Part shown: positions 16,113 to 62,335 of the stretch, one piece after another
How the letters are laid out: each line of letters opens with the position of its first letter
How positions within the stretch are numbered: position 1 is the stretch's first letter
NCBI RefSeq assembly: GCF_026151205.1
Contig: NC_087082.1
Span: 17,825,401 to 17,889,400 of the forward strand
Direction of reading: 5' to 3'
Source: Bolinopsis microptera
Lineage: Eukaryota > Ctenophora > Tentaculata > Lobata > Bolinopsidae
DNA length: 64,000 nucleotides
Translations under genes and position numbers: made by a program
Notes under the pieces: model-generated
Told to the model about the DNA's origin: nothing
Seen by the model: only the letters and a program-made list of their open reading frames with translations
The model's database searches: none

Positions 16113-17036
16113 AAAAAGATTACATGATGCTTTTTCGTTGTTCCCTGGTGCATAGTTGACATTTTTGTTTTTATGAACCTTTATAAAGCTCCAAAGATTG
16201 AAATAATCGTTTCGTCCTCTAGGTAAAATTTGTCAAAAAATTTTCAAATGTTGATAGGATAGTATGACTATTAATGTATGACTATTATCTACATATTAAA
16301 CAACTTTTTGTTAAATGGTACCCTTAGATCATAAAGAAACTGATCTACTCTCTCTCTTAAATCAACCACTTGCCATGATTAAAGGAATTTTCAAATCAAC
16401 ACTCAACAGTCCTTACTTTTTAATGTGAGCCGAGCCATTATAATATTTATAATGTTTGCAATATATGTTAATCATGATCTCATTTTATCATCAATGTTTC
16501 GAAATTTAACCTACTTACGATTTCGTATCATTTTTGTGACAATGTTGACATCAACTGCCCTTAATTTGAAACAACTGTATCGTTCTTATATAACTTTTTC
16601 TGGTATTTCAGACCAAAATAAGATATAAATGATTTCGGCTATTCACCCAAAAATACCTTCCTTTAAAGCTTTAACCAATCAATAATACTATTATTGATTG
16701 GTTGCCTACCACCAACAAGAAATTTTCTTTCTGAGCATTGGAGTATAATGGGTCACGGGGCTAATGTTCAGTACTTCTGAACATGTTAGGTTAATTATAG
16801 ATGCAAAAATTAAGCCACTAATGTCGTAAACGTTATTTTTTTTGTGTGTACCAAATACCAATATTCTCAAATGAACATGTCTTTATAGTTATAGGAAACA
16901 AATTAAAAATACGTAAGTTAACAAGTATGAGCTGAAAATGGATAATTACAAACAAAATAAATACAGTAGCAAGATTTAAGCAATAAATAAAAATAAATGT
17001 TTCATACAATTTCAAACAAATCAAAAAATTCGAGGC
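16113..17036. other. AT-rich intergenic stretch, nothing recognised
   Basis: Only short spurious frames occur. A small inverted pair AATCAATAATA/TATTATTGATT lies near 16676-16700. Confidence 0.5.
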
Positions 17037-28800: not shown

Positions 28801-31800
28801 TGGACACTCGCTTCACAGCTCATCAAATGACAATGGTACCCGATTGTTGGACTTTTGCATTGCCCACCAACTTACCATCGGTGGTACTATGTTTCAGCAA
28901 AAGGATATACATAAAGGTACGTGGAGATCACCTGATGGTCGTACTGTAAACCAAATAGACCACATCTGTATCAGTAAGAAGTTTGGAGGCTCCTTGCTAA
29001 ATGTAAAAGTTTGTAGGGGGGCTGACATTGGGTCTGATCACTATTTGGTAAGAGCACGGCTGAGAATGAAGCTTATGTCAGTGAAAAAGAAGCAGGATCG
29101 TAAGCTTGAGATTCCTGCTATTGAGCATCTGCGTGATCATTCACTTGTTTCCGAATACAATATTGTTCTGAGAAACAAATTTGACTGTTTGGAACCTGAG
29201 GTTGACTTGGAATCAATGTGGGACAACTTCAAGACAACTGTCCAACAAGTTTCCATGGAAATCCTTGGGCAAAGACCTCGAAAAAAGAAGGACAGGCACC
29301 AATCTCAGAAGACAAAAGAATTATTGAAGAACCGTAAGGAATTTAAGCGTAAAGACCCTAATTCCGACGCTAACAGGTCAGAGTATTCTAGATTGAATAA
29401 GCTCTTTAAAAAAAGTAGCAAGGTGGACGATAACAACTGGGCACGTAGAATGGCCAATGACTTGGAAGAAGCTGCTAGAAAAGGTCAGCAACGTGAGGTA
29501 TGGCAGAAGATCAATGTCATATCTGGAAAGAAGAAGAAGCAGTCAACTGCAGTTAGAGACGTATCTGGCTAGTTGATTGCCGACCCACATGCCCAGAAAG
29601 AAAGGTGGAAAGAGCACTTCTCTAGGCTATTGAACCCTCCCCCGCAAGAGGCCAATATTTCTGACCTAGACAACATCCCTCCGCAACCCAGTTTTGACGA
29701 CCTTTCCGATTCGGATGAAGCTCCTACAAGATACGAGATTGTTGATGCCCTCAAAAAACTCAAGAATCACAAAAGTCCAGGAGTGGACGGTATCACCAAC
29801 GAGCAACTTAAGTATGGACAGGATGGGTTGGTCGATCAACTAGTTGTGTTGTTCAAGAAAGTGTGGGAAGATGAGAAGATTCCTGAGGATTGGTCCAAAG
29901 GTGTTATTATCATCGTTGGAAAGAAAGGTGACACCTCTCATTGCGCTAACAACAGAGGCATTACATTAAGATCCACAGCCTCGAAGCTCCTGCAGATGAT
30001 ACTCCTGCGGAGACTTAGCAATGGCATGGAAAAATTCCTCCGGGAGAATCAAAGTGGTTTTAGACAGAATCGCTCATGTATTGACCAGGTTTATTCACTC
30101 CGCTGTATTATACACCAATGCATTGAGTATAATATCCCTCTGTATATTAATTTTGTTGATTTCAAAGCAGCTTTTGATTCAATTGACAGGCAGTTGATTT
30201 GGAGAAGTATGCAGCACTACGGCTTACCTGACAAGTACATTAGAATTATGAAGGCGTTCTTCACTCACACAGTTAGTGCTGTTAGGGTCAATGGAGAGGT
30301 CACAGGTTGGTTTGATGTCAACTCGGGTACTGGGCAAGGTGATATACAGGGACCACCAGTCTTCAACTTTTGTTTGAATTTTTCGGCATACCTTATGGAA
30401 CTGAACAAGGTCATTAGCAAAGGGGCTTTATTACAGCTGCCAGCCCCCGGGGTAGAAGAGAAACATCTTTTGGACACTGATTACGCTGATGACATGGCCA
30501 TGTTAGATAACTCAAAAGAGGGGCTGCAGGAAACCACTGACCTTCTCTGCAAATACAGTGCCTATGCGGGTCTGAAGATTAATGCTTGCAAAACACAGAG
30601 CATGGTTGTCAGCAAAAGTGCATCGCAGAGGCCGTATTCTAAAGACGACACTATGGACATCAATGTGGAAGGTCTCCCAATACAGCAGGTCAGCAATTTC
30701 ACTTACTTGGGTGCAATCATCAGTGCGAATGGAACAATTGACAAAGAACTGTCAGCTCGAATTCAAAAGGCCTCTGGGGCATTCTATCAGCTCAGCAGTA
30801 TATGGTACAGTCGCAACATCAAAACTCCAACTAAAATCAGGATTTACAAAGCGGCTGTTCTTGCACTATACTGCTTTATGGAAGTGAGGTATGGAATACC
30901 ACACAGACGCAGATGAAAAGATTTGAGGTGTTCCATCATAAATGTCTGAGGAGAATCCTGAAAATAAAATGGTTTTATCATGTATCTAATGCTGATGTAC
31001 TTAAGCGGGCTAACATCGCCCCTGTTGATACTTTCGTACGAGCAGCTAGACTCCGATGGTTTGGCCATGTGGTGAGGATGCCAGAAGAAAGAATACCCAA
31101 CTATCTTCTGCACTGGATCCCAAAGCATGGTAAAAGGTCAAGAGGTAGACCTCGGAAAAACTGGTTGTCATGTGTCCGGGAGGATGCAGCAATCTTCACA
31201 GGTGTCGATAACATCACGATAGAAGATGCAGAACAACAGGCTACAGACAGGGTTCACTGGAGAGGTCTAATACACCGGAGAAAGGAGTTACTATGTGGTG
31301 CAGGCCACTCCAACGACTAGGAGGAGACCTTTTCAAGTACAAGTAAGTACTATGTCGATAAATTAGTTATTTTGCCAACACGGAGCAAATAAAGTTATAA
31401 TATTTTTTTGTGACGAAATTTACAAATTTTTACCCTGTTCAGGTGTTGAAATTTATCCAATGTTAACATATCACTGCCATATGATAATTTATATGACCGG
31501 CGTATGGTTGAAATCTTACTATATATAAAGCGAGACGATATATATATATCTGTGCCATTTTACTGACACCACGGCATCAACTTTAACGCGACTTTCCGCA
31601 AAAACCGTAAAAGATATACAACTGGAACTTTTTTGGCTGGGTCAAATGCTTTAATGGCCTTCAAATCAGCATGAAAAAATAAAAAATTGGCCAAGGAATA
31701 ATGATTTTAGAGCCGAAAATTTGGGCCCCCAAGTGGTGTCAAAAACGCCGATTAAATAGGTAATAATTATTTTAGTATTTTGAGTCTTGACACCGTTTAG

Positions 31801-35638: not shown

Positions 35639-37671
35639 AGGACCAGTTAACTGAAAAAAAAGTTATCCTCATATTTTGACAGATTGTGACAAATAGCAAA
35701 CTAAGCAACGAGTCGAAATTCCTAAATCTCTAACTGCTCTCTAACGCGTGTAAATAGCGTTTGTATTATTTTGGCGATGACGTCATAAAGTCCCTCTTGC
35801 GCGCAGAATAGCTCGTGAGACTGTATTTTACAGGTAAAAATGGACATAATACAATCTTTTCCCCCGAATAACTCGAAAAGTAAGTAATTTAGGGTACATG
35901 TTGCTTCATAAGTTGTATATAAACATGGCCATTCTGCACAATTTGCACACATTCAAAAACCTTTAGGGCCTTCATAGCCCAATTAACCAGATACCCATAG
36001 TTTTGCATGATTTCTGGAACCGAAAATCAGTTTTTCGCCAATAACTGAAAAAGTAAGCACTTTAAGGCATATGTTTGTTCGTAAGTCATATATTAATATG
36101 CTAATTGCGGTTCTTTTGCATCCTGTCTGAAGACTCCATCACGATCATATCGAAAATGGGCTTAGCACCACGCCCAAAATGGTTTTTGGCGAATTTATCG
36201 AAAAGTAAGGATTTTAGGCCATGTGTTGCTCAATAACTCCTATATAAACATGCATATGCGGCTTCGTTCAAGCCTATTTTGAAGTCTCTACGACCTTCAG
36301 AAGCAAGGAGTCGGTTACGTTATTGGGTCAATATGGGCGTGGCCCTCCTGGGTTTTCTCCACGGTCAAAAAGATGTCTCCAAACGAAAATCGTTTAATCA
36401 TAACTTCGGGAAGGTCTGTGCAAAGTTTCGTGAGTATTAGAACATTTGCAGGTTCATTTCCATAAATGTCCATAAATGACTGGACTACACAACTTAAGAG
36501 TTAACTTTAGAGAAACTCATAAGTCATTTATCTCAAATTAAGCTGTTAGTGTCCATGATCAACCTCTGGCAACAATGTTTTACGTGAAATGTAAAAATCA
36601 GGAGTAATATAAAAAAGGTATTTTTAGATTAAAGTGCTAGCTCATAGTTTTAGAATTGTATAGATTAACGTTGGTCATTTAGCCATCTAACAATCGATCG
36701 TGCCGTAATATATGGCCAGAGAATAATAGGGTCTTGGAAATTCTATAGTTGTTCAGTGGGTCGATCGACTGAACACGTTTGCACTTGGTATTTAAACTTA
36801 CCAGTAGTTTATTTATGTTATGCACCGATGATAATGCAATTAGGATAACAACTAGGTAAGCCGGAAGTCTAATTCAAAACACACCTCACACCGTACACAC
36901 CTCCAATCAGTAATTTTACTATTTGGTAGACCGGGTATTTTGGCGGGAATTCTGTTCCCACGGCACTGTTCTGATAGAAGCTACTTCTACTAATGGTCCC
37001 AGAGGAACGGCCGTAAAGTAGCCAGACTTCTTGTCTCCTGTACTGGCAGACACTTGCAGATTAAAGTTAGAAATTTCGCTATGCTATAAATATAATTGCT
37101 CTCGGAATTGAACAAACTCCTACTTATCTGTTGTCTGTATCCTTTCTAAATTCGTTAGAGTTTCATGGACTGGGGAAAAAGAATCGGTACAGTCTCCCTG
37201 CTTGTGTAATTAAGCAATGAAAACAATCCAAAATTATCACATATGACATAAGTTGTAATAGCAGAAACTTTCTAACCGTACATTCACCCGCCACTGTTCA
37301 AGAACCTATATCACTGTTTAAAATCATGACGTGAGCACTGTACATCCAATCAGCTATTCCTTTAGTTAGGATGATAGCCAAAACTATAAGGATTTTGGAG
37401 AACTAGGGTAATAGTCATAATTCTAAAATTTGAGTGAGTTACACGTGTTTTATTGACGATGATAAACATTTGTAACGTAAATTACGCTATGCAAGCGCGC
37501 ACTGAGGGACTTTATGACGTCACGAGGCCACAGCTTATTATTGCAATAACACGCGTTACACGTACGCTAGAGAGTTGGTTCTTTCGGCGATACGATTCTT
37601 TACCAGTTTGTCACAGCTGATTTAAATCTTAGCCAAATTGGAGACTACAAATTTTTCAGTTAACTGGTCCT
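35639..37671. mobile_element. TTAA-flanked TIR element, non-autonomous
   Basis: TTAA at 35635-35638 and 37672-37675 flank inverted ends beginning AGGACCAGTTAACTGAAAAA, identical over 20 bases. Looser inverted similarity extends about 180 bp, including TGACGTCATAAAGTCCCTC on both sides. TTAA duplications suggest piggyBac or Kolobok type. There is no transposase ORF. The left interior has three diverged repeats (about 35866-36450) around CGAAAAGTAAG and TATATAAACATG. Confidence 0.82.
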
Positions 37672-37675
37672 TTAA

Positions 37676-37975
37676 CTTTCCGACAGTAAAGTAAGGGCGT
37701 TTCTTTACCAAACAATACACAACTTAATGTACATGAGCCAGCAGCCAGCTAGCTGGTATCCTAGCCACATAATAACAACAACAGCAGCCCCTTTAGGACG
37801 AGGGATCTGTGAGGCTAGACATTGGTAATAAGATATTACAGAGCACCTCACTATATGGGGACATGCTCGTTGGGGGTATTCCCCATGTGTTAGTAGTGTC
37901 CTTCAGTGTACCCAGCTGTGGGTGGTAGTGTTATGGAACTACCCCTGTTAAGAGGCAGGTGTCTTCATATCCAGT
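37676..37975. other. Short spacer, nothing recognised
   Basis: No ORF or repeat identified. The sequence looks clean up to about 37975, where the noisy triplicated block begins. Confidence 0.4.
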
Positions 37976-40900
37976 ATTGTAAGACTTTGTGGAAAATAAT
38001 AAGATCATTCAAGTCAAACTTTTGAGACAAAGGAGAAGTCGTGACAAGCTTGCACTTTTTGACATATTGTCTGGTGGATAAACTGCGGCCCTCTTCAGAC
38101 AGAATCCATTTATAGCTCTCTTTGGTGGGCTTTCTTATTTATCACTAAGTGATTTATTACAAGGGCGCCAGATTATGGAACAATTTTCGAATTGGCTACG
38201 AACCAGGGAGAGGTAAAGAGCCCGCGACGTTTCTGATCAATGTCAATATGCATTTCTTCTGGACCATACCAAGTTGTTGGCAGGCTTAGTATAAATTTGG
38301 TCGCATGACTATTCCACTTAGTTAGGAGCTAACCATCGACCTCCTAGATCTTTTTCTAACTCTACCATACACAAGAGGAGAGCCATCAAGTTGTATGCGA
38401 ACTGGAGAGATAAGATGGTTTTCTGAATACAATAGCACTTTAACATTTTGCTGGATGGATCGCATTTTGTTCTTAGTGCCAGTCTGAGAGATAGTCTATA
38501 TCATTTGTAAATTGTATTATCAGAAGATGGAATGTATTTTTCGCCAGATTTTGGTTTCATCGGCATACAAAACAATATCGTATTATCCGAAAGGCAAGAG
38601 GAATTCATTGATAAACAATACAAAAAGTAGGGACCAAGAATAGAGCCCTGGGGACACAGAATTAACTGAGAGGTAGATGACATCTATTTCCAATACCACT
38701 CTTTGGTAAGGCTTGAAGGTTATTGGTAAGAAATTTGAGAAAGTGTACCATCATGTTATATAAGGTCTTAGCTTAGAGAAGGTTATATGATTTAACAGAT
38801 CAATGCACTTAGCTAAATCAAAAATACACACCTGATTGATAATGTTTTCGTTAAGAGACAATGCCAGGCTATCACAAAGTCAACCATATGGTTGTGCATG
38901 ACTTGTCGCTATAGAAAAACCATGCTGCCTGGGAATCAAGAAGGTATTGGTCAAAGAAAAGCAGTTACGTTTAACAATTGCGCTCAAATAACATTCATGA
39001 CTAAACCAAGTAAGGGATTATTGGTCTTATAGTTTTTCAACTCACTTTTTTTTTCCCTACCTTTCTTAAATTTTGGGACAACATTGGCAAAGTTTCCATT
39101 CTTGTGGAATGTTGGCCGCTGTTGTAAGATCCACGAAAAATGCATGTTAAGAGGCGTAGCTAACCTACGGAACAATTTTGAGAATTTTACCGTGTATGCC
39201 ATCTGGTCCTGGGATTTATTTGAATTAATATTTAAAGAGCTTACGAAAACATCCCGATGAATCGTAGTCAATATCAAAAATCAAACATCATTGAATAGGA
39301 GATGATCAGTGTCATAAAGTGAAGGATCCGAAAAACTGGTTATAAAAAGAAAGATTGAAAACGTTCAGCTTGAGCTATGGGTTTTAACCGAAGCTGTCCA
39401 GAATACTAACACAATTAGGAATACGGAGGAGTTAGAATTATACTTATCAGTGACCAAAACTTCTTAGTTATTAGCGCTGGATCATCACTATTGAAAAGAT
39501 TGTCTCTTTTTTTGGCTGATGAAAGCCTCTTAAAATCTTTAGGCCTAGTAACAATCTTTAACTCATTCAGAAGTAGAACCAGAAATTTTAATTTAGATCT
39601 GAGTTTTCCTTTTACGGCATGAAGAAAAAAGTTCACTATCGAACCACGGGGGTTGAAACTCTGATTTAAATAGTTACTTTAGGATATGTATATCAACTAA
39701 ATTCATAATGAGTCTTTATCTAACTTCCAAGACGAATCAGGATCTAGGGCATTCTAGGATTGCAAATAATCGAGCATAATTCACGAATTAATAGTCAGAT
39801 TTGCTTTCTTATAATATAGATTTTACGTTTAGGAGTTTCTTGCGGGAAAAGGAGCTTTTAATTTGAAAAAGTGGCAGAAAAGATAGATTGCAACAGGGAA
39901 TGGGATAACAGAATTCAAGTTATCGTTGTGTTATCATAATTATGAGAAGAATGGTCTATTGTATTACCTCTTTTTTTGGGTGGAGTGATGTGATCAACTG
40001 GCGAGAGAGAAAGATCACTGAATGTTCTATGAAGGATTGACTCAATTGAGTACGGTACTGGATGAAGATAGCCTAAGTTGTTTGCGGGGAGATTAAAATC
40101 ACCAATACATAAGATTTTAGGGGGGATTCTTTTTGGAAATAGCTTGCGATATAACTAACTATGACATCATGATTAGGTAACCAAGAGTTCTACTCTTAAC
40201 AAGTACAGATTCAATACTCTCTTGTTGGAAAAGCAATTTTAAACGGCAAGCATTTCTGCATCTAGGCTAACTTGGTAGTCGGGTTGTAGTGGCATCGAGA
40301 TTCAGACCGAACAGCCAAAAGAACACCACCTCCTCACCCCCCCCAACAACCCACCCTCCTTTTTCCTAAAACTTTTTAGGGTTATTAGGATCTTGAGGAT
40401 GGAGTCTTTCTCGTGCGTCATTGCGGTAGATTTCATATTGAGAAGAAGGAAAGATTTCGTTGCTAGAAATAGATTTTTTGAGCCAAGTCTCATTTAGGGC
40501 AATTTGTCAGGTGCTCTATGTTAGCAAAGGATTGAAGTTCGGTATTCTTTTACATCAAGAAGGGGATGGGACGGAGCTTAGGTTACTGAAAGGAAATAAG
40601 ACCTTGGACATTTTGGTTAGGGAGTATTGATAGGGAGTTGGACCTGATTTAAGCATAGAAGGATTAAAAAAGGTTATCAAAGAAGTTAGGAGAGAAACCA
40701 AAGAATGAATAAAGATACTAGACGCCGAGGCGGCTGGAATTATTGATCTATTCATCTTACCAGGGAGAAGAATTTTTTATAAACTTGAGGAGATAATTAC
40801 AAAGAAAAGTTTCATGTGGGAGCAAGCAAGAAATGTATAAGATAAGTGGGGCTGTCAGGGAGTAGCGAGGAATGAATATTAGAATTAGGGGAATTACGGT

Positions 40901-41872
40901 GTTCATGGACCTAGTCGTGGCAGAGAAGAATTGGGAGAGGTAAGGTAATGATGAGAGATTAGAAGAGAAACATATGATTATGATAATTGTAGTTGATGTG
41001 TTGGGTTGATGGAGAATTAAATGTGTAAATTTTGTTAGGTATAAAGTGTTGATATGTATATGAGCATTTCTTGACTGTGTACGAGGACTTTTGCATGCTA
41101 ACAACCTACTCTAAGTCTAATACGATTCATTGTCTAACATATGGTAAAATGGGCCGTGACGAATGTACCTGAAATAGGTGCCCTTAAATTTGAGTAAAAG
41201 ATTAAATCAGAGTTTTGTTTGAGTTTTAATTTTGGCAACGTTTTAATCAAATATTAAATGAAAGAAAAGATCAAAGATTTAAATTCCAGAAGATTATTTA
41301 CAACCCTGTCAAAACTGTGGTCGTTTACAACTAAACTTAGCCAAGTGGACAGTAAACCTATTTCTCATGTTGAGATGAAGCAATCATGGTATAGGGAAGT
41401 TCATTAACATGATTAAAAGTCTCGAGTTAAAAGTTTGAGAAACTGTCTAGGAACACGGCAATTATTCTTTAGGCATAGTCTTTAAGTAGATTGTTAAAAT
41501 TAGAACATTCTTTGCTAGTTAGATATTAAACACTTAATTGGAAAGAAAACTTTGGACAATTATAATTGCAGCGGGAAATATACGCTTAGTGGTGTCAATT
41601 AATTCATAAGATACTCCTTAGAAACTGAACCCCATACTTAGATGTGTTAATGTCATTAGTACCAACACTCAAATAATTTTTCAATATCGTCAGGCATTCT
41701 GCAGCTGCATTGAGTTTTATGAAATGATCGTAGGAGCTTGTAAGGAAAAACATGGATTCTATTAATTTAATATGTTATTCTGACATGATGATCTGCATTT
41801 TGACATGAAATCTCTGAGTTTGTAGTAATCGGTGTTTTATTATATATATATATATATATTATATTATATACA

Positions 41873-41903
<31 letters not shown>

Positions 41904-42400
41904 CTATTATCTATATTTTAAACTTGACGAAATTTCCCCGGCAGGGGACCATAGAAGAAAAAATACACCGCAAAATCGACCTCAAAATGGACCTATGGTG
42001 ATGCAAAACCAGTCGCAAATGGGTTGAAACCTCGCCATTTTTTAGCAGGTTGTGAAAAAGGATAGGCTGGCTATAGCATTCTTAGATTTTTGAGTTAGGC
42101 TTTAGATTTTTTAATTAACGTCGGAAGTGAGGTTAAATAATCGTTAGAATAATGGCGTTATTTAAGCAAATGGTTTACTGCGCTGTTTCGTGAGCAACGT
42201 TAAATTGCACGTGCGCGAGCAACAACAGATTAACACGCGCGTTGTTATGCTGTATGCTACGTCATAATTTCAAAACTAGCTAACATTTACGCTCACGCTA
42301 TGACTTTTATACTTTGTTTGTGTTTGGTATTGTTTGATTTGGGCCAGGTTTTGTAAAAAGTATCGTTTTGGGGAATCGAATACTAACAACGCTGTCGCTT
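37976..42400 (-). mobile_element. CR1/Jockey-like LINE locus, copy A (noisy)
   Basis: Reading minus, fragments include a degenerate endonuclease near 40130-40080, KNGNFANVVPKFKKG near 39100 and CPQGSILGP near 38640. Many frame breaks; see the comment on the whole block. An AT dinucleotide tract lies at 41838-41911. Confidence 0.65.
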
Positions 42401-42934
42401 TGTTAGATAATTCCATTATGTCGACAGCCGTTGTTAGTATTCGGATTCCAAAACGATACTTTTTACCGGCATCAAAATACCAAATCACAAACAAAGTTAT
42501 AAGAAGTCCATAAGGTGAGCGTAAATTGTGAGCTAGTTTTGAAATTTTGACGTTGCATTCAGCATAACACGCGCGTTGTTAATCTGTGGTTGCTCGGCAC
42601 GTGCATTTTATCGTTGCTACGCAACAGCGCAGTAAATACCTTTGCTAAAATTATCCGCAATTATTCTAAACGATTATTTAACTCACTTCCGACGTTAAGT
42701 ATAAAAAAATCTAATGCCTAAATCAAATTTCTAGATTGTATCGCTATTCTATCCTTTTTCTACAACCCTGCTAAAAATGGCGAGGTTTCAATCCATTTGC
42801 GAGATGGGTTTGTGGATCACCAGAGGTTCTTTTTGAGGTCGATTTTCGGTGTTTTTTAATCTATGTCCCCGTTGCCGGGGAAAATTTGCTTCAAGTTTAA
42901 AATATAATATGATATATATATATATTTATTCTCA

Positions 42935-42976
<42 letters not shown>

Positions 42977-45900
42977 TATATATAATGAAAACTAACGATT
43001 CTACAAACTCGTAGGTTTCATGCTATATGCAAACATCAGATGTCAGAATAACTTATTAAAATAATAATTCTTGTTTTCCTTACAAGTCCTTCATCATTTC
43101 ATAAATTCATGAGTGCAGAAGCTGACGCTATTGAAAAAAATATATTGAGTGTTGGTACTAATGACATTAAAATTTAAGTATGAGGGGGATGTTCAGTTCC
43201 ATAGGAAGTTTTCTTTTACTGAATTAATTGACACACTAAGCTGTTATTTCCCGCTGCAATTTAATTGTCATGTTGTCTTCCTATTAAGTGTTTATATTCC
43301 TACATAGCAAAGAATGTTCTAGATTTTAACTAATCTACTTAAAGGACCTTATGCTAATGACTAATGCGTGTTCTAGACTGTTTCTCAAAATTTTTAATCG
43401 AGGGGAACTTTTGATCATGTTAATGAAACTTCTATACATGATAGGCTTCCATCTACAACATGAGAGGAGTAGGTTTACTGTCACTTGGTTAAGTTTGTTT
43501 TGTAACGAACTAACAGTTTTGACAGGGTTGTAAAATAATCTTTTTGAATTTAAAGCTTTGATCTTTTCTTTCATTATATATTTGAATTAAGACGTTGCGC
43601 GAAAATTAAAAACTCAAAAAATTCTGATTTAATCTTTTTCTCAATTGATGCCTCCTATTTCAGGTAATTCGGTTCACTGCCCATTTTTCATATGTTAGAC
43701 ATGAATTCGTTTAGACTTAGAATAGGTCTTTTTGCATGCAAAAAGGCCTCGTACACAGTCAAGAAATGCACATTTACATATCAACACGGTTTAATACTAA
43801 CAAAATTTACACATTTAATTCAACATGCACCCACACATCAACTTACAATTATCATAATATATGTTTCTCTTCTATTCTTCATCTATGACTTACCTACTCC
43901 CAATTACTTCTCTCCACGACTTGTCATGAACACCGTAATTCCCCCTAGATTCTATATTCATTCCTCTCTAATCATTGACAGCCCACGTTATCGTATTCCC
44001 ATTTCTTGCTTGCTCCCACATCAAACTTTCTTGTAATTATCTCCTATGGTTTATAAGAATGTTCTTCTCCCTGTAAAGATGAATAGAGTCAGAAGTATTC
44101 TGCCGCCTCAGGGGTCTAGTATCTTTATTCAGTCTTTGCGGTTTTCTCTATTACTTTCTTTTGATACTCTTGTAATCCTTCTATGCTTATTCCAGGTCCC
44201 ACTCCCTTTCTATACTCTACCTCAAAAATGTCCAGGTCTATTTCCTTCAGTAACCTAAGCTAACTCCCTTCACCTTCTGGATGGTAATAAAGATTTCGAA
44301 CTTCATCCTTTGCTAATTGAGCAGCCTGAATATTTGCCCTATTGAGACTTGCTCAAAAAATCTATTTTAGCAACGAAATCTTTCCTTCTTCTCAATATGA
44401 AATCTTCGCAATGACCGCACGAGGAAAGATCATCCTCAAGATCCTAATAACCCTAAACATGTTTAGGGGAAAATGGAGGTGGTGTTCTTTTTGGCTGTCG
44501 GTCTGATTCATGGCCACTACAACCCGACTACAGTTAGCTAGGTGCAGAAATGCTTGACCGTTTAAAATTCTTTTAATAACAAAGAGAGTATTGTAATTGT
44601 ACTTTGTTATTGAGTAGGAAAACTCTTGGGTTACCTAATCATGATGTCATAGTTAGTTATATTCGCAAGGCTAGTTTCTAAAAAGAATCCCCCTATAATC
44701 TATGTTATGGGTGTTTTTAATCATCCCCCATAAGCCTGGCTATCTTCATTCCAGTACCGTACCTATTGAGCAAATCTTCATAGATTCTTTCAGTGATCTT
44801 TCTCTCTCCCAGTTGATCACATCACCCACCCATAAAGTGGTAATACATTAGAATTCTTCTCAGTAATTATGATAACACAATCGATAACTTGATTGTCTGT
44901 GAGCCTCATTCCGTGTGCAAATTGATCATTTTCCTGTCACTTTTTCAATTAAAAGCTCTTTTCCGCAAGGAAAACTCCTAACGTAAAAATCTATAATTAT
45001 AAGAAAAGCAAACTGGACATGATTAATCGTGAATTTGCGTGATCGATTAATAGGCAAGTCTAGAATGACATAGATCCTGATTCGTCTTGGAAGTTTAGTT
45101 TAAAGACTGCATTATGAATTTAGTTGATATACATATTCCTAAGTAACTATTAAATCTGAGTTTCAACCCCGTGGTTCGATAGTGAACTTTTTTCTTCATG
45201 CCGTAAAAAGGATAAGATACTCAGATCTTAAATTTAAAAATTTTGGTTCTATTTTGATGAGTTAAAGGGTTTGTTTACTAGCCGTAAAGATTTTAAGTGC
45301 TTTCCATCAGCCAAATAAGGAACAATCTTTTCAATAGTGTTTGATCAGCGCTATTAACTAAGAGTTTTTGGTCACATGTTTAAGTATAATTTTACTCATC
45401 GTATTCCTATTGTGTTAGTTATTCTGGACAGCTTCGGTTTCAATACCAAAGATAAGCTGTCATCTTTTCATCTTTGCTTTTATAACCAGTTTTCGGATCA
45501 TTCACTTTATGACACTGATTTCTATGTCAATGATGTTGGTTTTGATATTGACTTCGATCATCGGGATGTTCGTAAGCGTCTTTCAAATATTATTCAAATT
45601 AAAGCCTGGGACAGTGGAATACACGGTAAAATTCTCAAAATTTGTTCCGTAAGGGTTTAGCTTACCTCTAACATGCATTTTTCGTGGATCTTACAACAGA
45701 GGCTACATTCACAAAGAATGGAAACTTGCAAAGGTTGTCCCAATATTTATGAAAGGGTAGAAAAAGTGAGGTTGATAACTTATTGACCAATATCCCTTAC
45801 TTGTTTAGTCATGAAGTTTTTGAGCGAATTGTTAATGTAAACTGCTTTCTTTGACAAGTACCCTTCTTGATCCAAGGCAGATGGTTTTCTAGAGCACAAG

Positions 45901-48290
45901 TCATGCACAACCAATATTGGTTGTCTTTTGTGATAGCCATGGCTTTGTCTTTAACGAAAACATTATCAATCTTGTTGTGTATTTTGTGTTTGCTAAGGCA
46001 TTTGTTCTGTATCATGTAGCTTCTTCATATAGACTAAAAGACTTATATTACATTGAATGGTTCACTTCTCAATTTTTACCAATTACTTCAAGGCGTTACA
46101 AAGAGTGGTTATTGGTAATGAGATGTATCTACCTCTCTCAGTTTAATTCTGGTGTCCCACAGGGCTCTTTCTTGGTCCCTTATTTTTGTATTGTTTATCA
46201 ATGATATTCCTCTTGGCCTTTGGAAATACTGATTATTGTTTTGTATTGCGTGATACAAAAATCTGGCGTAAAATACTTTCATTTCTGATAATACTAATTT
46301 ACAAATGGATATAGATATCTCTTGACTGGGCACTAGCAACAAAGCGATTCATCCAGCAAAATGTTTAAGTTGCTATTGTTTCATGAAAACCATCTTTATC
46401 TCCTCCATTTTCGCATACCAATCTTGATGGCTCTCTCTTGTGTATGTAGTGTTAGAAAAAGATCTTGGAGTCGGATGTTACTCCTAAAGCTCTAAGTTGG
46501 AATAGTCAGTGCACAGAATTTATTACTAAGGCCTGCCAACAACTTGTAATGGTCTGAGAGATGGGCCCTATTGTCATTGATCAGAAAAGAAACGTCGACG
46601 GGCGCTTTACCTCTCCTGGTCCGTTTGCCAATTCGAAAAATTGTTTCATAATCTGGGCGCCCCTGGAATAATGCACTTAGTGATATATTAGAAAAGTCTC
46701 AAAAGAGAGCTATTAAATGATTCTGTTCTGAGAGGGCCGCAGTCTATCCACATGAGCAATTTGTCAATAAAAGTTGCAAGCTTGTCGACATTCTCACGTT
46801 GTCTCAAAAGTTTGACTTGAATGATCTTATTTTTTTCACAAAGTCTTACCAATTTAATTCCTGTATCACTGCCTCAATAATCTCTCTTTATATCAGGCAC
46901 TTCTCGACTAAGACGTGGCACTCGACGTCTGTCTATTGTGTCATACAATTTTACTAAGTTAAGTCAGAATTCACACACCACATGTACCTCAAATAGCCCA
47001 CTGGCAAAATCATTTTTTACAGAACACCATATACTGTGGAATGGACTCTTTACAGGTAAGGGACGATTGTGTCTACTAGTCTTTTCAAAAGATGAGGTCA
47101 CTAAGCATCTTGGAAATGTTTATTGGATAGTGAAACAACAGTCTCGCCTAGTCGCTTTGCTCCCCATATTATTATTATTTTTGTTATATTAATTTTTTTT
47201 ATCTACCTTCTATACTTTCAACATTTTCACACTTCACCCGCACACTTCTAACACATTTATGACCTTTCAATCCTTGTATCTAAGTTTCTGGGATTTGAGT
47301 ATTTGAAATAAAATTTTGACTTATATCCACTGTTATTCACATGGAATTGGTTTGTTATTAATAGTTTTTCATAAATTTTTGGATTTAGATTAATTCGATG
47401 TAATGGGTTCCAAGTTACTGCGGACATAGTTCACTATGTGTTACCGTTGTTTGTGTTGCCCATCATATCTTTACAGATGGGGGCGATATTTTGAACGATT
47501 CTATTTATATTTCATCTATGCTGTACCTGTAAATTGAAAAGTATTTACTAAAAAAAAATAAAATTTACTTAACTTAACTAAATCAAAAAAAATCAAACGA
47601 AAACGACAACTCGAAATTGAAACGAAAATGAAATACAAGAACATAAACAAAAACTAAAATTAAATTAAAATTACTAAAGCTTTCTTCTGCATAACCTTTT
47701 TGGTGTGCTCCATTTAACTTAGAGTTCCCTCCTCCTATTAATAGATTGCCATCTTTATTTAAAATAATATAAAGTTTTTCAGTAAGCAGAGATGACAATC
47801 TTTCGTAACCACTGCTACGATGAGATGTTTGATTATTTTACAAGATATTTTATATGGTGTTGTTTATCTTTCAACTCACTTATTTTTTAGATAGTTCGTT
47901 TGATTCGTAGCTTCTCGAGTTTGAAAGGCTTGTGTGTGACACTGAAAGGGTTCTTAAAAAGTGTTTTCAGTAAGCAATATATTTGTGCTCTTTCTTTCCA
48001 TTTTTCCTGAATAGTTGCTTCATATATCATGCTGCTTCAGGCAATTGTCGTTCAGTGGGCAAATTTCCGGTTTCTGCAATTGCAGTTTTCGATTTAATTG
48101 TAGGTTCCTTTCTGAGCTTGGTTGTCTGCGGTGTCGCTAATATGGATCCCTACGTTGGGTAGGCACTGTCTGATAGCTTAATTGTGTTTCTGTTGAAACA
48201 TTTTGTGGAAATGGTGTCCTCTGGGGAAGTGCTCTTGCTTTTCATTTTCCATGAATAGTTGCTTCATATATCACTGCTGCTTCAGGCATG
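42400..48290 (+). mobile_element. CR1/Jockey-like LINE locus, copy B (noisy)
   Basis: Plus-strand fragments in order: endonuclease-like text around 44700-44830 (a GDFN-like motif, then a TSPTHK-like end), IHGKILKICS near 45620, SGVPQGS near 46145, and a WNGLF-type C-terminal end near 47040. AATAAA occurs near 47307, followed by TTAACTT-type sequence. An AT tract at 42907-42985 mirrors the one in copy A. Confidence 0.65.
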
Positions 48291-51200
48291 TCCGTTCAGT
48301 GGGCACATTCGGCTTTCTGCAAATGTATCAACAAATAGGCAAGAGATTCTCCGATTATAGAAAGCACTTCCCCAGTGGACACCAATTTCACAACATGTTC
48401 AACAGAAACACATTAAAGCTATATACAGTTGCCTACCCAACGTAGGATCATCTTAGCGAGCACCAGAACCAAGCCTCAGAAAGAACTACAATTAATCGAA
48501 AACGTGCATTGCAGAAAGCCGGAAATGTGCCACTGAACGGACATGCTGGAAGCAGCAGTGATATTTGAAGAAACTATTGCGTGGCAAATGAAAAGAAGAG
48601 CACAAAATATATTTGGCTTACTGAAAACACTTTTAAGACCCGTTTAGTTCACACACAAGTCTTGCAAACTCGAGAAGCTACGAAATCAGACGGGCTATCT
48701 AAGAAAATATGGGAGTTAAAAGATAATACAAAACACATATAAAATATCTTGAAAATAATGAACATGCTCATCCGTACAAGGGGGGTACGAAAGATTGCTC
48801 TCTGCCTTACTGAAAAACTTTTTATTATTTTAAACTAAAGATGGCAATCTATTAAATAGGAGGAGGGAACTTCATAAGTAAAAATGTAGGCACACCAACA
48901 AGTTTATTGAAAGTAATGCTTTTTGGAATTTTATTTTAATTTTAGTTTTGTTTTGTATTTCATTTTCGTTTCAATTTCGTTTCGTTTCGTTTGATTTGTT
49001 TTTGATTTAGTTAAGTTAAGTTAATTTTTATTTTTTTTATTAAATACTTTCAAATTTTACAGGAGTACAGCTTGATGAATATAAAATTGAATCGTTCAAA
49101 ATATCGCCCCATCTGTAAAATATGATGGGCACCCAGAATACACGGTAACATAGTGAACTATGTCGCAGTAACTTGGACCATTACATGAATTAATTAAATC
49201 AAAAATTTATGAAAAAAATTTAATACAAACAATCCTGTGAATAACTGTGGATATAGAGTCAAATTTTGTATTTCAATAACGTCAATTTCAGTACATTACG
49301 ATACAGGTTGAAATGGTCATTAATGTGTGAGATGGAGTGCGGGTGAAGTGTGTTTTGAGTTGAACAGTATAGGACGGTAGATAAAAAAAAATTAATAAAA
49401 CAAAAATAATATTAATATGGGGAGCAAAGAGACTAGAGGTGCTAGACTGTTGTTTCACTATCAATAAACATTTCCATAGATGCTTAGGACCTCCGCTTTG
49501 AAAAGACTAGTAGACACAATCTGTCTTACCTGTAAAAGGGAGTCCATTCCACAGTATATGGGTTCTGTAGAAAATGATTGTTGCCAGGGCTATTTTGAGG
49601 TTTGTGGTGTGTGAATTCTGACTTAACTTGGTAAAAGTGATGTCCACAATAGACAGATTGTCGAGGGCGGCAACGTCTTAGTCGAGAAGTGCCCTGATAT
49701 AAAGTGAGATAGTGAGGCAGTGATACAGGAATTAAATGTTAATGAACTTTGGTGGGAAAAACTAGATCATTCAAGTCAAACTTGAGACAAAGGAGATGTG
49801 ACAAGCTTGCATTTTTTGACTATTGCTCAGGTGGATAACTGCGGCCCTTTCAGACGAATCATTTAATAGCTCCTCTTTTGGAGACTTTCTAATTGATCAT
49901 AAGGTGATTTATTACAAGGGCGCCAGCTTATTGGAAAACAATTTTCGAATTGCTACGACCAGGAGAGGTAAAGCGCCCGGCGACGTTTCTGATTAAAAGT
50001 CCAATATGGCCTTCTCTTTCTGACCATTCCAGTTGTGGCATGGCCTTAGTTTAAATTCTGGTCGCACTGACTATTCCACATTAGCTTAGGAGTAACATCG
50101 ACTCAGATCTTTTTCTAACTCTACTACACAAAGAGGAGAGTCCTCTAAGATTGTATGCGAATGAGGAGATAAGATGGTTTTCCTGAAACAATAAGCACTT
50201 TACATTTTGCTGGATGGAATCGCATTTTGTTTCTTAGTGCCCAGTCAGAGAGATCAGTCTATATCCATTTGTAAATTAGTTTTTCTGAGATGAATGTATT
50301 TTACGCCAGATTTTTGTTCATCGGCATACAAAAAATTTCAGTATTATCCGATAAGCCAAGAGGAATATCATTGATAAACAATACAAAAAGTAAGGGACCA
50401 TGAATAGAGCCCTGGGGACACCAGAATGAACTGAGGGTAGATGAATCTCATTACCATAACCACTCTTGGTAACGGCCTTGAAGGTTATTGTAAGAAATTT
50501 GAGAAGTGTACCATCAATGTTTAAATAAGGTCTTTAGCTTATGAAGAAGGATAATCATGATTTCAGAATCAAATGCCTTAGCAAAATCAAATACACAACA
50601 TGATAGATAATGTTTTCGTTAAGAGACAATGCAAGGCTTCACAAAAAGTCAACCATATTGGTTGTGCATGACTTGTGCTTAGTAAACCATGACTGCCTGG
50701 ATCAAGAAGGTACTTGTCAAAGAAAGGCAGTTTACGTTTTAACAATGCGCTCAAAAACTTTCATGATAAACAAGTATGGGATATTGGTCTATGTTTTCAC
50801 CTCCTTTTCTTCCTTTCTTAAATTTGGGACAACATGCAAGTTTCATTCTTGTGGAATGTTGCCGCTGTTGTAAGATCCTCGAATAATGCATGTTAGAGGG
50901 GAAGCTAAACTACGGAACAATTTTTGAGTATTTTACCGTGTATGCCATCTGGTCCTGGGCTTTATTTGAATTAATATTTGGAAAGAAGCTTACGAACAGT
51001 CGTGATCGAAGTCAATATCAAATCACAACATCATTGACATAGGAGATATCAGTGTCATAAAGTGAAGGATCGAAAAATGGTTTATAAAGAAAAGAATTGA
51101 AAAGGTTCAGCTTGGCTTTGGGTTTGACCGAAGCTGCAGAAGAACTAACACTTAGGAATACGGCCAGGAGTTAGATTTATACTTAACAAATGTGAACAAA

Positions 51201-53466
51201 AACTTTTAGATATTAGCGCTGGATATCTCTATTGAAAAGATTGTCTCTTTTTTGGTGATGAAGCCTCTTAAATCTTTACGGTAGTAACAAACTTTAACAT
51301 CAGAAATAGAACAGAATTTTAAATTTAGATCTTTGGGGGAGGGGGTCTATTCCTTTTTACGGCATGAAGAAAAAAGTTCACTATCGACCACGGGGTTGGA
51401 AAACTCTGATTTAAATAGTTACTTTAGGAATATGTATATCAACGAATTTTCATATGCAGTCTTTAACTAACTTCCAGACGAATCAGATCTAGGTTTTAGG
51501 AATTGCAATTAATCCGAGCATAATTCACGATTAATCATGTCCCTGTTTGTTTCTTAATTATAGATTTTACGTTTAGGAGTTTTCTTGCGGGAAAAGGAGC
51601 TTTTAATTGAAAAAGTGACAGGAAAATGATCAGAATTTGCACACGGATGAGGATCACAGACATTCAAGTTATCGATTGTGTTATCATAATTACTGAGAGA
51701 AGTCTAATGTATTTACACTTTTATGGGGGGTGATGTGATCAATGGGAGAGAGAATGATCACTGAAAGTATCTATGAAGGTTTGCTCAATTAGGTCGGTAT
51801 TGGATGAAGATAAGCAGTCTGTATGGGAGAGATTAAAATCACCATAACATTGATTTTAGGGGGAGTCTTTTTGGAAACTAGCTTAGAATATAACTACTAT
51901 GACATCATGATTAGGTAACCATGACTTCCTACTCTTAAACATGTACTGATTTACAATTCTCTCTTTGTTAGATAAGCAATTTTATAAGGCAAGCATTTTC
52001 ATGCACCTAGGCTAACTGGTTAGTTCGGGGTTGTAGTGGCATGAGATCAGACCGAACAGCAAAAGAACACCACCTCATTTTCCTAAAACTTTTTAGGGTT
52101 ATACTGGATCGTGAGGATGAGTCTTTCTCGTGCAGGTCATTTGCGGATGATTTCATATTGAGAAGAAGGAAAGATTTCGTTGCTAGAAATAGATTTTTTG
52201 AGCCAAGTCGCATTTAGGGCAATTATGTCAGGCTGCTCGATGTTAGCAAAGGATGAAGTTCGAAATACTTTTACATCAAGAGGGGATGGGAGGAGCTAGG
52301 TTACTGTAAGGACTAAGACTTGGACTTTTGTAGAGTATAGATAGGAGTTGGGACCTGATTAAGCATAGAAGGATTAACAAGAGTTATCTAAAGAAGGTAG
52401 AGAGAAACCCAAAGAATGATAAAGTTACTAGAGCCTGAGGCGGCTGGAATACTTGACCTTATTCATCTTACCAGGGAGAAGAACATTTCTAATAAACCAT
52501 GAGGAGATAATTACAAAGAAAAGTTTTGATTGTGGGAGGCAAGCAAGAAATGGTATTAAGATACGTGGGTGTCAAGGAGTAAGAGTAGGAATGAATTATT
52601 AGAATTAGGGGGAATACGTGTTCATGAGACTAGTCGTGGAGAGAAGAATTGGGAGAAGGTTAAGTCATGATGGAGAATAGAAGAGAAACATATGATTATG
52701 ATAATTGTAGTTGTGTGTGGGGTGCATGGAGGAATTAAATGTGTAATTTTGTAGTATAAAGTGTTGATATGTATATGTGTTTTTGACTGTGTACGAGGCC
52801 TTTTGCATGCAAAGGTCCTATTATAAGCTAAACGAGTTCATTTGTCTTCACATATGGAAAAATGGGCAGTTGACCGAAAGTACCCTGAATAGGAGGCATA
52901 AATTGAGATAAAGCTTAATCAGAGTAATTTGTTTGTTTTAATTTTATGGGAACGTCTTAATCAAAATATTAAATTGAAGAAAAGATCAAAGAGTTAAATC
53001 CCAGTAGATTATTTACAACCCTGTCAAAACTGTGTTCGTTTAAAAACTTAAGCCAAGTGGACAGTAAAACCTACTCATCTCATGTTGAGATGAAGCATTA
53101 TGGTATAGAAGTTCATTACATGATCTAAAGTCTCGAGTTAAAAAGTTTGAGAATACAGTCTGGAAACAGCAATTATTTCTTTAGCATAAGTCTTTAAGTA
53201 GATTGTTAAATCAGAACATTCTTTGCTATGTAGGAATATATATAGCACTTAATAGGAAGTCAACATTGGACAATTATAATTGCAGCGGGAATACTGCTTA
53301 GTGGGGTCAATTAATTCAGTAAGATCTTCCTAAGGAACTGAACCCATACTTAGAATGTTTAATGTCATTAGTCCAAACTCAATATAATTTTTTCAATATC
53401 GTTGCTTTCGCGCTTGCATGAGTTTTATGAAAATGATTGAAGGAGCTTGTAAGGAAAACATGGATT
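48290..53466 (-). mobile_element. CR1/Jockey-like LINE locus, copy C (noisy)
   Basis: Minus-strand repeat of copies A and B; the PQGS region is near 50420. The copy stops abruptly about 53466 and passes straight into PGAM5 coding sequence. The short run ACATGGATT is the last shared sequence. Confidence 0.65.
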
Positions 53467-53469
53467 TAT

Positions 53470-54006
53470 AAAAGCAGCTTCAATACGTGCTCCATCTGTA
53501 AACTCCCATGAATCTGGTTTGAATCTACTACTGGAGGGCACAGAATCAATTGGATGCCCCTCACGTAGCAGGTCTGTTTTTTCAATTTCAAAGCTTCCAT
53601 TTAAAACCTCCATACCAGTTTCATTGAGCTGTTTCAGAATGATTTCACCAGTTTCATTTGCTCTGGTCATAGTGCTGATAACTAAATCAGAATATTTTAC
53701 ACCCAACTTAGCAAGATGCTTACCAGTGCACTCAGCTTGTTGACGACCCAGCTCAGTGAGAATTTTCTCTTTATCATGCTGTTTATCTAGTTCATACTGA
53801 CCATGTCTAATGAGATATAGGGTCCGTCTGGTGGCTGATTTTCTTTTCTCAAGATCCTCATCTGGTGAGTTAGGTTTAACAAGAGATGATGGCTGGCGGA
53901 AGTCCCAATTGTAATCCCATGCTTTTGATTTGCACTTTGCATGAACGCTAAGAGCAGACACTGTTCCAGCTACTGAAGCAAGACAAACTATTGCTGCTTT
54001 CTTCAT
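53470..54006 (-). CDS. PGAM5: PGAM5-like mitochondrial Ser/Thr phosphatase, N-terminal part
   Basis: Starts MKKAAIVCLASVAGTVSAL, a hydrophobic N-terminal anchor as in PGAM5. The WDYNWDFRQP motif, which lies in the region of PGAM5 that governs its multimerisation, follows. The phosphoglycerate-mutase-fold active site follows as TLYLIRHGQYE (RHG with catalytic His), then TELGRQQAECTGKHL and STMTRANETGEII. The family protein is about 290 aa; only some 179 residues are present, up to DGARIEAAF. The frame then runs 15 codons into unrelated LINE-locus DNA and stops at 53425, so the gene is cut at the junction of the suspect block, not at a splice site. The visible part has no intron. Confidence 0.85.
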
Positions 54007-54630
54007 GGTGCCTTATAGTAATAAGTTATATTATTATAAGGAAACATTTTCAAGAGTTTTTACTGTGATGACACAAAATTTACTCATGTATCAGATCATT
54101 TCTAAGTCAACAAAATTACACTTTGGCTACCCAAAACATCTGTCTAGCCTAGAGCCCTGGACCTGGCCCCTGAGAGCAAATTTCTTATAGCTAGTAATTT
54201 GGGTAATCAATCTCATTATTATTATTAAATCTAAAATAGCTAATAATTTAATAAATTATTAACAGGCCCCTTAACGTGGGCAATAATATACGCTTAATCA
54301 ATCTCTAAAGACTGTATAGATCAAATCGTAATACTCTCGAAAAAAATGGAAGTGAAAAATGTTCAACTTTTTTCTAAAAACTACTTTTCTCCGTGTTTTA
54401 AGCTATTCCAATCATTTTGAGCCAATAAAATTTTTTTAGAATTTTGCTAATTAGTTAATTGATCCAATTAACTTATTATGATCTGACGTAAAAATTGTTC
54501 GAACAAAAGTTTTTTCTCCTGATAATTTGAACACACTCGATTGATCTGCAACCTTTTACGATGTTCACAACTAAAGATATTTGACAAACAATAAAGGTGA
54601 TAAAAAGTGGTAAAGTGGCAAAAAGTGGCC
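54007..54630. other. Spacer upstream of PGAM5
   Basis: AT-rich; no ORF. It presumably includes the PGAM5 promoter, which I could not delimit. Confidence 0.4.
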
Positions 54631-56429: not shown

Positions 56430-58127
56430 TCGTAAATCCTGAGGATACAAGGATACAAGGATACAAAAGTGATAATTACTTTATTGAGTACACAATAGTT
56501 GTAATTCTGAAATAATTTAAGTTACACAATTCTAATTATTTACAAGTGTGTAGGGATAATTTAGAAATGATATATAATGCTAGTTTTAGAAAAATAGATA
56601 AATCGAGTTTGTATGGTTCAATCTTATTTTAAGGTCCTGTAGCATTATGCACTTGCCAGTATTTGAGTGGAAATCTGGGCTCTTATAGTAGGCTGTATAA
56701 TTTTCGTTCACAGAGAGAATTGAATGGATTGCTCTTGCTGTGGCAGTGAGTGTGGTAGGATCTAGAGTTTTGTTGGAGAGCAAACCGACTAGGTCAGTAA
56801 TGTTTAGGGGATGGAAATTGAATTTTTCCCTAACTGAGGAGTAGAGCAAACAGTCAATCAATACGTGACTTTCGTCCTCAATAGGCTTGAGCCCTTTGCT
56901 GAAAAAGCAGTAGGTGCACCAACGTTCTTCTCTTGGTACAAGGGGGGTTTCGTATCTGCCCCTTTCGATGTAGAGGTTGTGGCAGCTGATACGAAACCTT
57001 GTCAGACTTTTTCGAACATCCGGTATTTTGATAATTCGTAGGTATGCCTCTGGTTCGAAATCGTGTTTAATTAAGTTATAGAATTCTAGTTTTGGCGAGG
57101 AGGCCTTGGCAGCTTTCCAGGTATTCACGAATTCTTCCCTCATGTTATGACTGATTTGGGTGGAGAGCTTAGATTTTGAGGAAGATGAGGGGGTGAAGTT
57201 GTATTTGGTGAGAAGCTTTGAGATGTTGGTATACCAAGGAAGTCCCAACATGATTTGTTCGTGAAATGCAGCACAGAGTAGTTCGTTTTCAGTGTTTTCA
57301 AGGCGACTATAGTAATCTATTGCAAGTTTGCAGGCTTCAAAGAATAGAGGGTGGCGCCCGCTTTCACCCCAGCAACCTATATTTGATGCTTTTGAATGTA
57401 CAGACAAAGACCACTTGATAAACTTTAGGTGGAATTTTTCATAGTGGTCTTGTGCAATGTACTTCAGGGTATGCTGGGGGCTGGCTTTGTCATCTATTTT
57501 TGAAAGGTATCTCATGGTTTTTGAGTGGGGGCATAAGACTTGACAGCCATAAAGCAGGATTGGTTTTATTAAGGAGTCAAATAGAATATTAAGGGCACGG
57601 TGTGAGAGGGCATCCTTAACTATTTTGCCTTTGAGGCCATAGAGAGCACGGAGAGCCTTGGCCCTCAGCTCAGTATTTGCTGCTGTAAACGATCCATTTC
57701 TGTGGAATATTATGCCAAGATAGCAGTATTTATCGGTGTGCTGGATGGGCTGACCTCCCAATGTGAATGTTTCATAGGACTGCTTTCGTTTGGGAGGGCT
57801 GAATATTACAATCTTAGTTTTCTTAATATTTACTTCAAGGCCCATGGAGTTACAGAAATCAAATAGAATGTTGATATTGACTTGCAAGGCCTCGGGACTT
57901 AGAGCAAGAAGGACAAGATCGTCAGCCCACAGCAGATGTGATATCAGAACGTCAGCAAGAACTGGATAGTCACCAACAGATTTCAGGAGAGATGAAAAGT
58001 CATTAATGTAGATTTTAAAGAGGTCTGGCGATAGGGGGTGTCCTTGCTCCGTTCCTTTGCCAATATCAATTTTAGGCGACAAGAGTTTGGAAATTTTTAT
58101 ATAGGCAATAGAGTTTTTGTACATATC
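56430..58127 (-). mobile_element. 5'-truncated LINE with 8-bp-repeat 3' tail
   Basis: The minus-strand element ends with AATAAA (near 56487) followed by three TTGTATCC units (56440-56468), a microsatellite tail of the type seen in CR1-like LINEs. The 5' end stops within the RT palm around 58127, as expected for incomplete reverse transcription. Confidence 0.75.
56586..58124 (-). CDS. LINE reverse transcriptase fragment, 512 codons
   Basis: An open frame from 58124. Landmarks: GTEQGHPLSPDLFKIYIND, LLWADDLVLLA (catalytic ADD), MGLEVNIKKTKIV, YCYLGIIFHR and PILLYGCQVL. The C terminus has a zinc-knuckle-like C-X2-C...EDESHVLIDC. The fingers and any endonuclease are missing. The frame is free of stops over 1.5 kb, so the insertion is recent. 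The ATG at 58124 is fortuitous. Confidence 0.85.
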   Translation of the reverse strand: MYKNSIAYIKISKLLSPKIDIGKGTEQGHPLSPDLFKIYINDFSSLLKSVGDYPVLADVLISHLLWADDLVLLALSPEALQVNINILFDFCNSMGLEVNIKKTKIVIFSPPKRKQSYETFTLGGQPIQHTDKYCYLGIIFHRNGSFTAANTELRAKALRALYGLKGKIVKDALSHRALNILFDSLIKPILLYGCQVLCPHSKTMRYLSKIDDKASPQHTLKYIAQDHYEKFHLKFIKWSLSVHSKASNIGCWGESGRHPLFFEACKLAIDYYSRLENTENELLCAAFHEQIMLGLPWYTNISKLLTKYNFTPSSSSKSKLSTQISHNMREEFVNTWKAAKASSPKLEFYNLIKHDFEPEAYLRIIKIPDVRKSLTRFRISCHNLYIERGRYETPLVPREERWCTYCFFSKGLKPIEDESHVLIDCLLYSSVREKFNFHPLNITDLVGLLSNKTLDPTTLTATARAIHSILSVNENYTAYYKSPDFHSNTGKCIMLQDLKIRLNHTNSIYLFF

Positions 58128-61944: not shown

Positions 61945-62335
61945 GTTCGGAGAGTACTGGTGCGCTACTGTTCATAGCATAGCTGTACTGGTACTCTACT
62001 GTTCATAGGAGTGTACTGGTGCTTTTCTGTTCACAGGAGATGGTGCTCCACTGTTCATAGGAGAGTACTGGTGCTCTACTGTTCATAGAAGAGTAATGGT
62101 GCTCTACTGTTCATAGGAGAGTACTGGTATTCAACTGTTCATAGGAGAGTACTGGTATTTTACTGATAATAAGAGAGTACTGGTGCTCTACTGTTCATAG
62201 CAGTGTTCTGTTCGTAGGATAGTACTAGTGCTCTACTGTTCATAGGAGAGTACCGGTGCTCTATTGTTCATAGCAATGTACTGGTGCTCTGCTGTTCATA
62301 GGAGAGTACTGGTGCTCTACTACATTCATAGCAAT
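61945..62335. repeat. Minisatellite, about 27-bp unit
   Basis: Roughly 13-14 degenerate copies of GAGAGTACTGGTGCTCTACT + GTTCATAG. Several units are partly deleted. Confidence 0.9.

Follow-up and report, generated by a model that had tools for sequence, protein, structure and literature searches.

We report that a 15.5-kb block of the ctenophore Bolinopsis microptera genome assembly, at positions 37976-53469 of a 64,000-nucleotide window (C11:17825401-17889400, where C11 is NC_087082.1 and the labels C1-C13 used below denote contigs of one assembly), is raw long-read noise and not genome structure, a conclusion that we regard as practically certain whatever the source of that noise. An initial annotation had put this forward from the letters of the window, and it was borne out by errors private to each copy, by an error spectrum that depends on the strand read and flips at the palindrome centres, and by identical noise elsewhere in the genome. 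The best explanation is probably that the block is uncorrected single-molecule output, in which a closed molecule free of adapters was read repeatedly and slices of the resulting read were pasted by the assembly pipeline.

On the contig the block occupies C11:17863376-17878869. Comparison of the window with itself resolves it into three inverted copies, A (reverse strand), B (forward) and C (reverse), that are 83-84% alike: the inverted matches cover 37976-46853 at 83.1% and 43072-48233 versus 48363-53460 at 83.8%, and A and C match directly at 85.1% and 85.7%. Pass A (37976-42397) starts inside a long interspersed nuclear element (LINE), runs antisense through it to 41728 and then enters flank 1. 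Loop 1 (42398-42421), 24 unpaired nucleotides through which clean copies of a high-copy repeat run continuously, leads to pass B (42422-48233), which holds the full 5.8-kb stem, namely the flank 1 repeat, a (TA)n tract, the LINE (43090-47556, its frame broken by private noise) and the flank 2 repeat. Loop 2 (48234-48362), with 129 unpaired nucleotides, contains a second copy of about 47995-48080 and then an inverted piece, and is followed by pass C (48363-53469), comprising flank 2, the antisense LINE (49032-53441) and the end of the slice. The palindrome centres, located by eye from the alignments, lie at about 42410 and 48298, in agreement with the three-copy arrangement proposed initially. 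Per 100 bases, B and C differ by 4.9 mismatches and 10.0 indel events in the LINE and by 4.8 and 9.8 in flank 2, and A and B by 4.5 and 10.7 in the LINE and by 6.0 and 8.3 in flank 1. The LINE and both flanks are thus alike in carrying about 8-11 indel events against 4.5-6 mismatches per 100 bases between copies; the initial annotation had likewise described frequent indels, equally dense in coding and spacer sequence, and these fall about once in 10 bases in the LINE and the flanks.

The LINE occupies the middle 4.5 kb of the unit, and its copies elsewhere in the genome (264.65 Mb in 232 contigs in all) provide a clean yardstick. With pass B as query, 36 candidates were scored and 38 matches listed; the window itself was not among them, so that counts of noisy places are lower bounds. 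Eight of 13 near-complete LINE copies were taken as the yardstick (L001-L008); they are mutually 98.2-99.8% identical with at most three gap openings in about 4.8 kb and constitute a young LINE family. In alignments to these clean copies, the gap openings number 262-267 for pass B and 251-256 for pass C, each over about 4.6 kb, and 147-150 for pass A over about 2.4 kb. L001 has an open endonuclease/reverse-transcriptase frame of 1171 amino acids and a GDSL-like open reading frame 1 (ORF1) of 217 amino acids, which makes it a LINE with a GDSL-type ORF1, a class that we take to be CR1/L2-like. The LINE copy in the block is 5'-truncated within this GDSL-like ORF1, the start of which is absent.

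We aligned 19 passes to L001, three from the window, six from C5 (9.54 Mb), four each from C9 and C7 and two from C1; a further pass of 598 bases that lies outside the LINE was set aside, as were the copies on C13 and at 15.25 Mb of C5, which are identical to passes already counted. In individual passes, substitutions relative to L001 make up 1.8-4.0%, insertions 2.4-4.4% and deletions 3.5-6.6% of bases (2.50%, 3.34% and 4.22% overall), amounting to about 10% private errors each, and one-base indels account for 78-95% of the indels in each pass. The majority of the 19 passes differs from L001 at five of 4,489 positions, one of these being a tie between two states that are both unlike L001. A minority base is present in three or more passes in six columns, the tied column included, where an estimated 3-4 are expected by chance. 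Given this near-identity of the majority to a clean LINE together with the private errors, the passes render one template: they are noisy versions of a single sequence, with the private errors expected of an uncorrected single-molecule read. The breaks in the LINE frame had been described as private to each copy, and the 19 passes, with their five shared majority differences, are in keeping with this.

The errors also follow the strand that was read. In LINE-sense coordinates, deletion affects 8.6% of G versus 2.4% of C in pass A, 9.2% of C versus 1.9% of G in pass B, and 8.9% of G versus 2.6% of C in pass C. Likewise, the counts of A>T to T>A changes are 4:41 in A, 43:7 in B and 7:46 in C (Fisher p = 5e-15 for A versus B, 2e-14 for B versus C and 0.54 for A versus C). 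The bias changes sign at the palindrome centres, and in all 19 passes it has the sign that fits the reading strand, for deletions as for substitutions; the reading strand was assigned from loop orientation (reversed in C5 at 9.54 Mb and in C1), with the window alone needing no such assignment. The type of error thus tracks the reading strand and not the sequence copy, as in raw reads. Expressed on the read strand over all passes, the deletion rates are 10.15% for C, 4.45% for A, 1.97% for T and 1.91% for G, without a rise by homopolymer length, and transversions outnumber transitions by 1494 to 182. Nanopore noise is typified by homopolymer-linked deletions and an excess of transitions, and PacBio raw reads by more insertions than deletions. 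The noise in the passes is most likely of PacBio origin. A nanopore origin is disfavoured by the homopolymer-independent deletions and the transversion excess, set against general expectations for that platform, although the excess of deletions over insertions speaks the other way.

The artefact is larger than the window, with noise from the same template standing at six other places. A genome search with the palindrome ends as queries located arrays of the unit, besides that of the window on C11, at two places on C5 and on C13, C9, C7 and C1; all share the template and both loops, and their slices are cut at varied points of the unit. The noise itself is reused: C5:9540519-9569414 equals C5:15252023-15280918 (28,896 bp, 100.000%, no gap), and C13:16099780-16122432 equals part of the latter in inverted orientation (22,653 bp, 100.000%, no gap), the identical stretches between the C5 places and C13 spanning 15,485-28,896 bp. 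The final 645-bp stretch of the C13 slice is in turn the start of the C7 slice. It follows from this identity and overlap that successive pieces of one noise string stand on different contigs, and by arithmetic on the alignments the C5, C13 and C7 slices chain to about 62 kb, all of it read directly. Equal scores and positions pair the slices on C9 and C1 with pieces of the second part of the second C5 array, and the C9 slice also shares an 82-bp exact overlap at the start of that part. This second part (15285919-15363241) was read at its two ends, with about 74 kb resting on regularly spaced matches, and would make up a second chain of about 78 kb. Between the two parts of the array lie exactly 5,000 N (C5:15280919-15285918). 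On C5, seven intervals between successive copies of loop 2 measure 11,646-11,777 bases and average 11,725; across the N run the distance is 23,590, which departs from two circuits by less than 140. As the phase of the circuit is kept across the N run, one read of about 142 kb, rather than a few reads, is likely. In all, about 243 kb is affected, spread over seven places and six contigs (15.5 + 36.1 + 77.3 + 32.0 + 23.0 + 26.5 + 23.5 + 8.7 kb), including the 74 kb derived from spacing.

These slices also bear on the lengths of A, B and C, which had been explained as a partial, a full and a partial pass of one read. Traversal of a single template was upheld; the outer passes, however, need not be the ends of the read, in view of the slices of the same template cut at varied points and the 62-kb chain.

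Both loops derive from the genome and recur in the same form in every copy aligned (six of loop 1, nine of loop 2). Loop 1 measures 26 nucleotides in the majority of its copies and is continuous with the clean high-copy repeat, and loop 2 measures about 130. Read by eye against clean copies, loop 2 consists of the stem end, a second copy of a 90-100-nucleotide piece and an inverted piece, with a shared GTGCT (5 nucleotides) at the first switch point and CAA (3 nucleotides) at the second, likewise by eye. The template is a 5.8-kb stem closed by 26-nucleotide and approximately 130-nucleotide genome-derived loops, with a circuit of 11.7 kb. The loops look as though a short molecule had undergone fold-back or template-switching synthesis at each of its ends. 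Such synthesis would have closed both ends of a 5.8-kb double-stranded molecule by single-stranded loops, turning it into one 11.7-kb circle. This circle, carrying no adapter, would have been read round and round to give a very long read of alternating sense and antisense passes that was left unsplit, and the assembly pipeline, most likely in its gap-closing step, would have placed slices of it between unrelated sequences.

The edges of the block are consistent with pasting, as the noise starts and stops sharply at them. On the right, the clean sequence at 53470-54048 (reverse strand) is a truncated copy of PGAM5: a by-eye translation of the frame running from 54006 to 53470 shows a match to His_Phos_1, and the genome search recovered the same frame. 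This stretch is 98.96% identical over 579 bp, with six mismatches and no gaps, to an intact PGAM5 at about C11:17,798,300-17,798,880 (L009:3302-3880), which has one open frame of 262 amino acids and lies about 80 kb from the truncated partial duplicate on the same contig. The match begins exactly at the block edge, in mid-exon, as the initial annotation had noted. The remainder of PGAM5 does not lie at the left edge, since the window contains no further match of at least 97% over 300 bp to the 8-kb PGAM5 locus. On the left, the sequence is clean to 37676, where 36500-37676 (forward strand) is part of a high-copy repeat with 39 other places scored, its main piece being 96-99% identical; the final 299 bases before the block (37677-37975) lack such a clean-repeat yardstick. 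Over the noisy blocks as a whole, 14 clean edges of 0.5-4.8 kb were compared with the unit, without any match at an E-value of 1e-3. Copies of the LINE or flanks elsewhere in the window that might have guided the pasting were sought as well: there was no match to pass B and none to the right of the block, and the four matches to its left are all to the clean locus L001, three in the flank of L001 beyond the LINE end (16530-16655, 25829-26140 and 26479-26769) and one (12479-12589, 112 bp) at 77.7% to the last 115 or so bases of the LINE. On C13, a (TTAGGG)n tract in chromosome-end orientation (C13:16099600-16099780; L010) lies about 250 kb inside the contig with a noisy slice directly after it, a possible false join.

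In the template the LINE sits within a copy of the flank 2 repeat, since in clean copies the sequence preceding the LINE joins flank 2 directly. Clean empty sites of this kind are present (e.g., C1:19292084-19292194 adjoining 19292193). Searches at the two LINE junctions for a clean copy of the filled locus found none among 40 scored of 113 candidates or among 40 of 480, so that the assembly either lacks such a locus or holds one that the searches overlooked. Flank 1 (42422-42920; L023-L024) belongs to a high-copy repeat of about 620 bp, most scored copies of which are 97-100% identical, and in places it occurs as inverted pairs. The flank 2 repeat (47558-48233; L025-L028) in places forms facing inverted pairs 0.8-4.5 kb apart, which resemble the long terminal inverted repeats of a DNA transposon.

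A route by which uncorrected read sequence may have entered the assembly is provided by the published procedure, which, in its description of the assembly, used PacBio data with wtdbg 2.4 and HiRise, followed by gap closing with TGS-GapCloser 1.1.1, Purge Haplotigs and pilon (PMC10232365). TGS-GapCloser is described as cutting fill segments from long reads, with several candidates possible from one read and correction optional (PMC7476103), behaviour that could account for identical slices at several places. The case is thus akin to gap filling with uncorrected long reads, in which read segments are inserted between scaffold pieces, and differs from it in that the edges here do not align to the inserted sequence. 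Several points weigh against the view that slices of a repeatedly read closed molecule were pasted in during assembly. It is based on assembled sequence and not on raw reads. TGS-GapCloser needs a read that aligns to both edges of a gap (PMC7476103), and no tested edge resembles the unit, leaving the acceptance of the slices by the gap closer unexplained. A circle without an adapter also offers no obvious means of priming the sequencing. Deletions exceed insertions (4.22% versus 3.34%), opposite to the PacBio pattern given above. From the choice of assembler the Bolinopsis data would be continuous long reads (CLR); the library passage, however, names PacBio CLR and HiFi libraries for three species jointly and does not assign a type to each (PMC10232365). 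A survey of fold-back reads found virtually none in PacBio HiFi data and 0.03% in Iso-Seq (PMC12870357). The present assembly has 232 contigs, and the published one is given as 346 scaffolds (PMC11797021). Finally, the slice in the window, which presumably derives from the same read as the others, matches none of them exactly among the stretches compared.

Other sources for the same noise have to be weighed against repeated reading of an adapter-free closed molecule. Ordinary missed SMRTbell adapters on a 5.9-kb insert would again give raw-read noise, from another source molecule, and would yield exactly such an alternation of passes. Palindromic PacBio reads have been attributed in part to adapters that were missed or missing (PMC6218980), and such reads share with the block the alternating passes of one insert, the raw error rate and the harm to assemblies. 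Turns of this kind were implied by the initial annotation, of which the back-and-forth reading held, while the turns do not look like adapters. No adapter-like site was found in eight noisy stretches with a 45-nucleotide SMRTbell adapter query, the best match scoring 12-19 per strand, about the level of three shuffles (14-17) and below the minimum of 31 in 200 simulated noisy adapters. Moreover, unlike in missed-adapter reads, the turns are fixed, genome-derived loops of 26 and about 130 nucleotides, and a noise string of about 62 kb was read directly. We therefore regard missed adapters as decidedly unlikely. A strand-displacing polymerase might instead have made fold-back ends and concatemers before sequencing, still to be read as raw noise. 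In support of such an amplification chimera, palindromes after whole-genome amplification have been reported in 40-50% of the reads of the Arabidopsis samples, with up to 15 per read (PMC6218980), and loop 2 has two switches at short shared bases. Fold-back artefact reads (PMC12870357) and amplification palindromes (PMC6218980, PMC13265396) resemble the block in the inverted repeat, the short unpaired spacer and the dispensability of an adapter; the present case differs in turning again and again at two constant points, like a molecule with both ends sealed. The methods text drawn on here mentions no amplification (PMC10232365), and loop orientation relative to the error strand is constant in five of five loci, though these comprise at most three independent strings, for which the chance of constancy is at least 1/4. 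An amplification chimera thus appears improbable, if worth keeping in mind.

The block might alternatively have its origin in the animal. In a real palindromic tandem array of 11.7-kb units, left unpolished on account of ambiguous read mapping, the regular 11.65-11.78 kb spacing on C5, the slices at seven places and the failure to find a clean filled locus within the candidates scored would find an explanation. Such an array is nonetheless very hard to sustain, as there is no sign of inherited variants between units (six minority columns against 3-4 expected), the noise is identical at several places, with C13 and C7 holding consecutive pieces of one string, the errors follow the read strand, and the edges are cut at varied positions of the unit. 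The pairwise difference of about 17% could in itself suggest an old, decayed inverted duplication of the LINE locus. One-base indels dominate, however, no lineage is shared among the 19 passes and the sign of the error flips at the centres; we rejected this reading, to which we give next to no credence, on the difference of the majority from the clean LINE at five of 4,489 positions. Lastly, the molecule itself might be natural, a real 5.8-kb linear element of the animal, extrachromosomal and closed by hairpins so as to form a single-stranded circle of 11.7 kb. Fold-back together with template switching at short homologies would have generated it from a repeat-LINE-repeat locus, and as a natural closed circle it would have been sequenced over and over, a prospect that we consider rather remote.

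Apart from the block, the window has tandem repeat arrays at 5148-6168, 22897-24600 and 61949-62335, recognized from many overlapping self-matches. Judged by eye, long frames at 861-4100, 28136-30916 and 56586-58124 resemble reverse transcriptases of other retroelements, and an open frame of 306 amino acids at 9138-10058 resembles a chain of immunoglobulin-like domains. No match to Rfam was found within the window.

The noisy sequence in this assembly produces spurious giant inverted repeats and LINE relics, leaves PGAM5 truncated and may introduce false joins. The read-strand error test needs only an assembly and a clean repeat copy, and could be used to screen other genomes for pasted raw reads. 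As the linkage of genes in ctenophores has been used to argue the position of the root of the animal tree (PMC10232365), joins at noisy slices in this assembly should be flagged.

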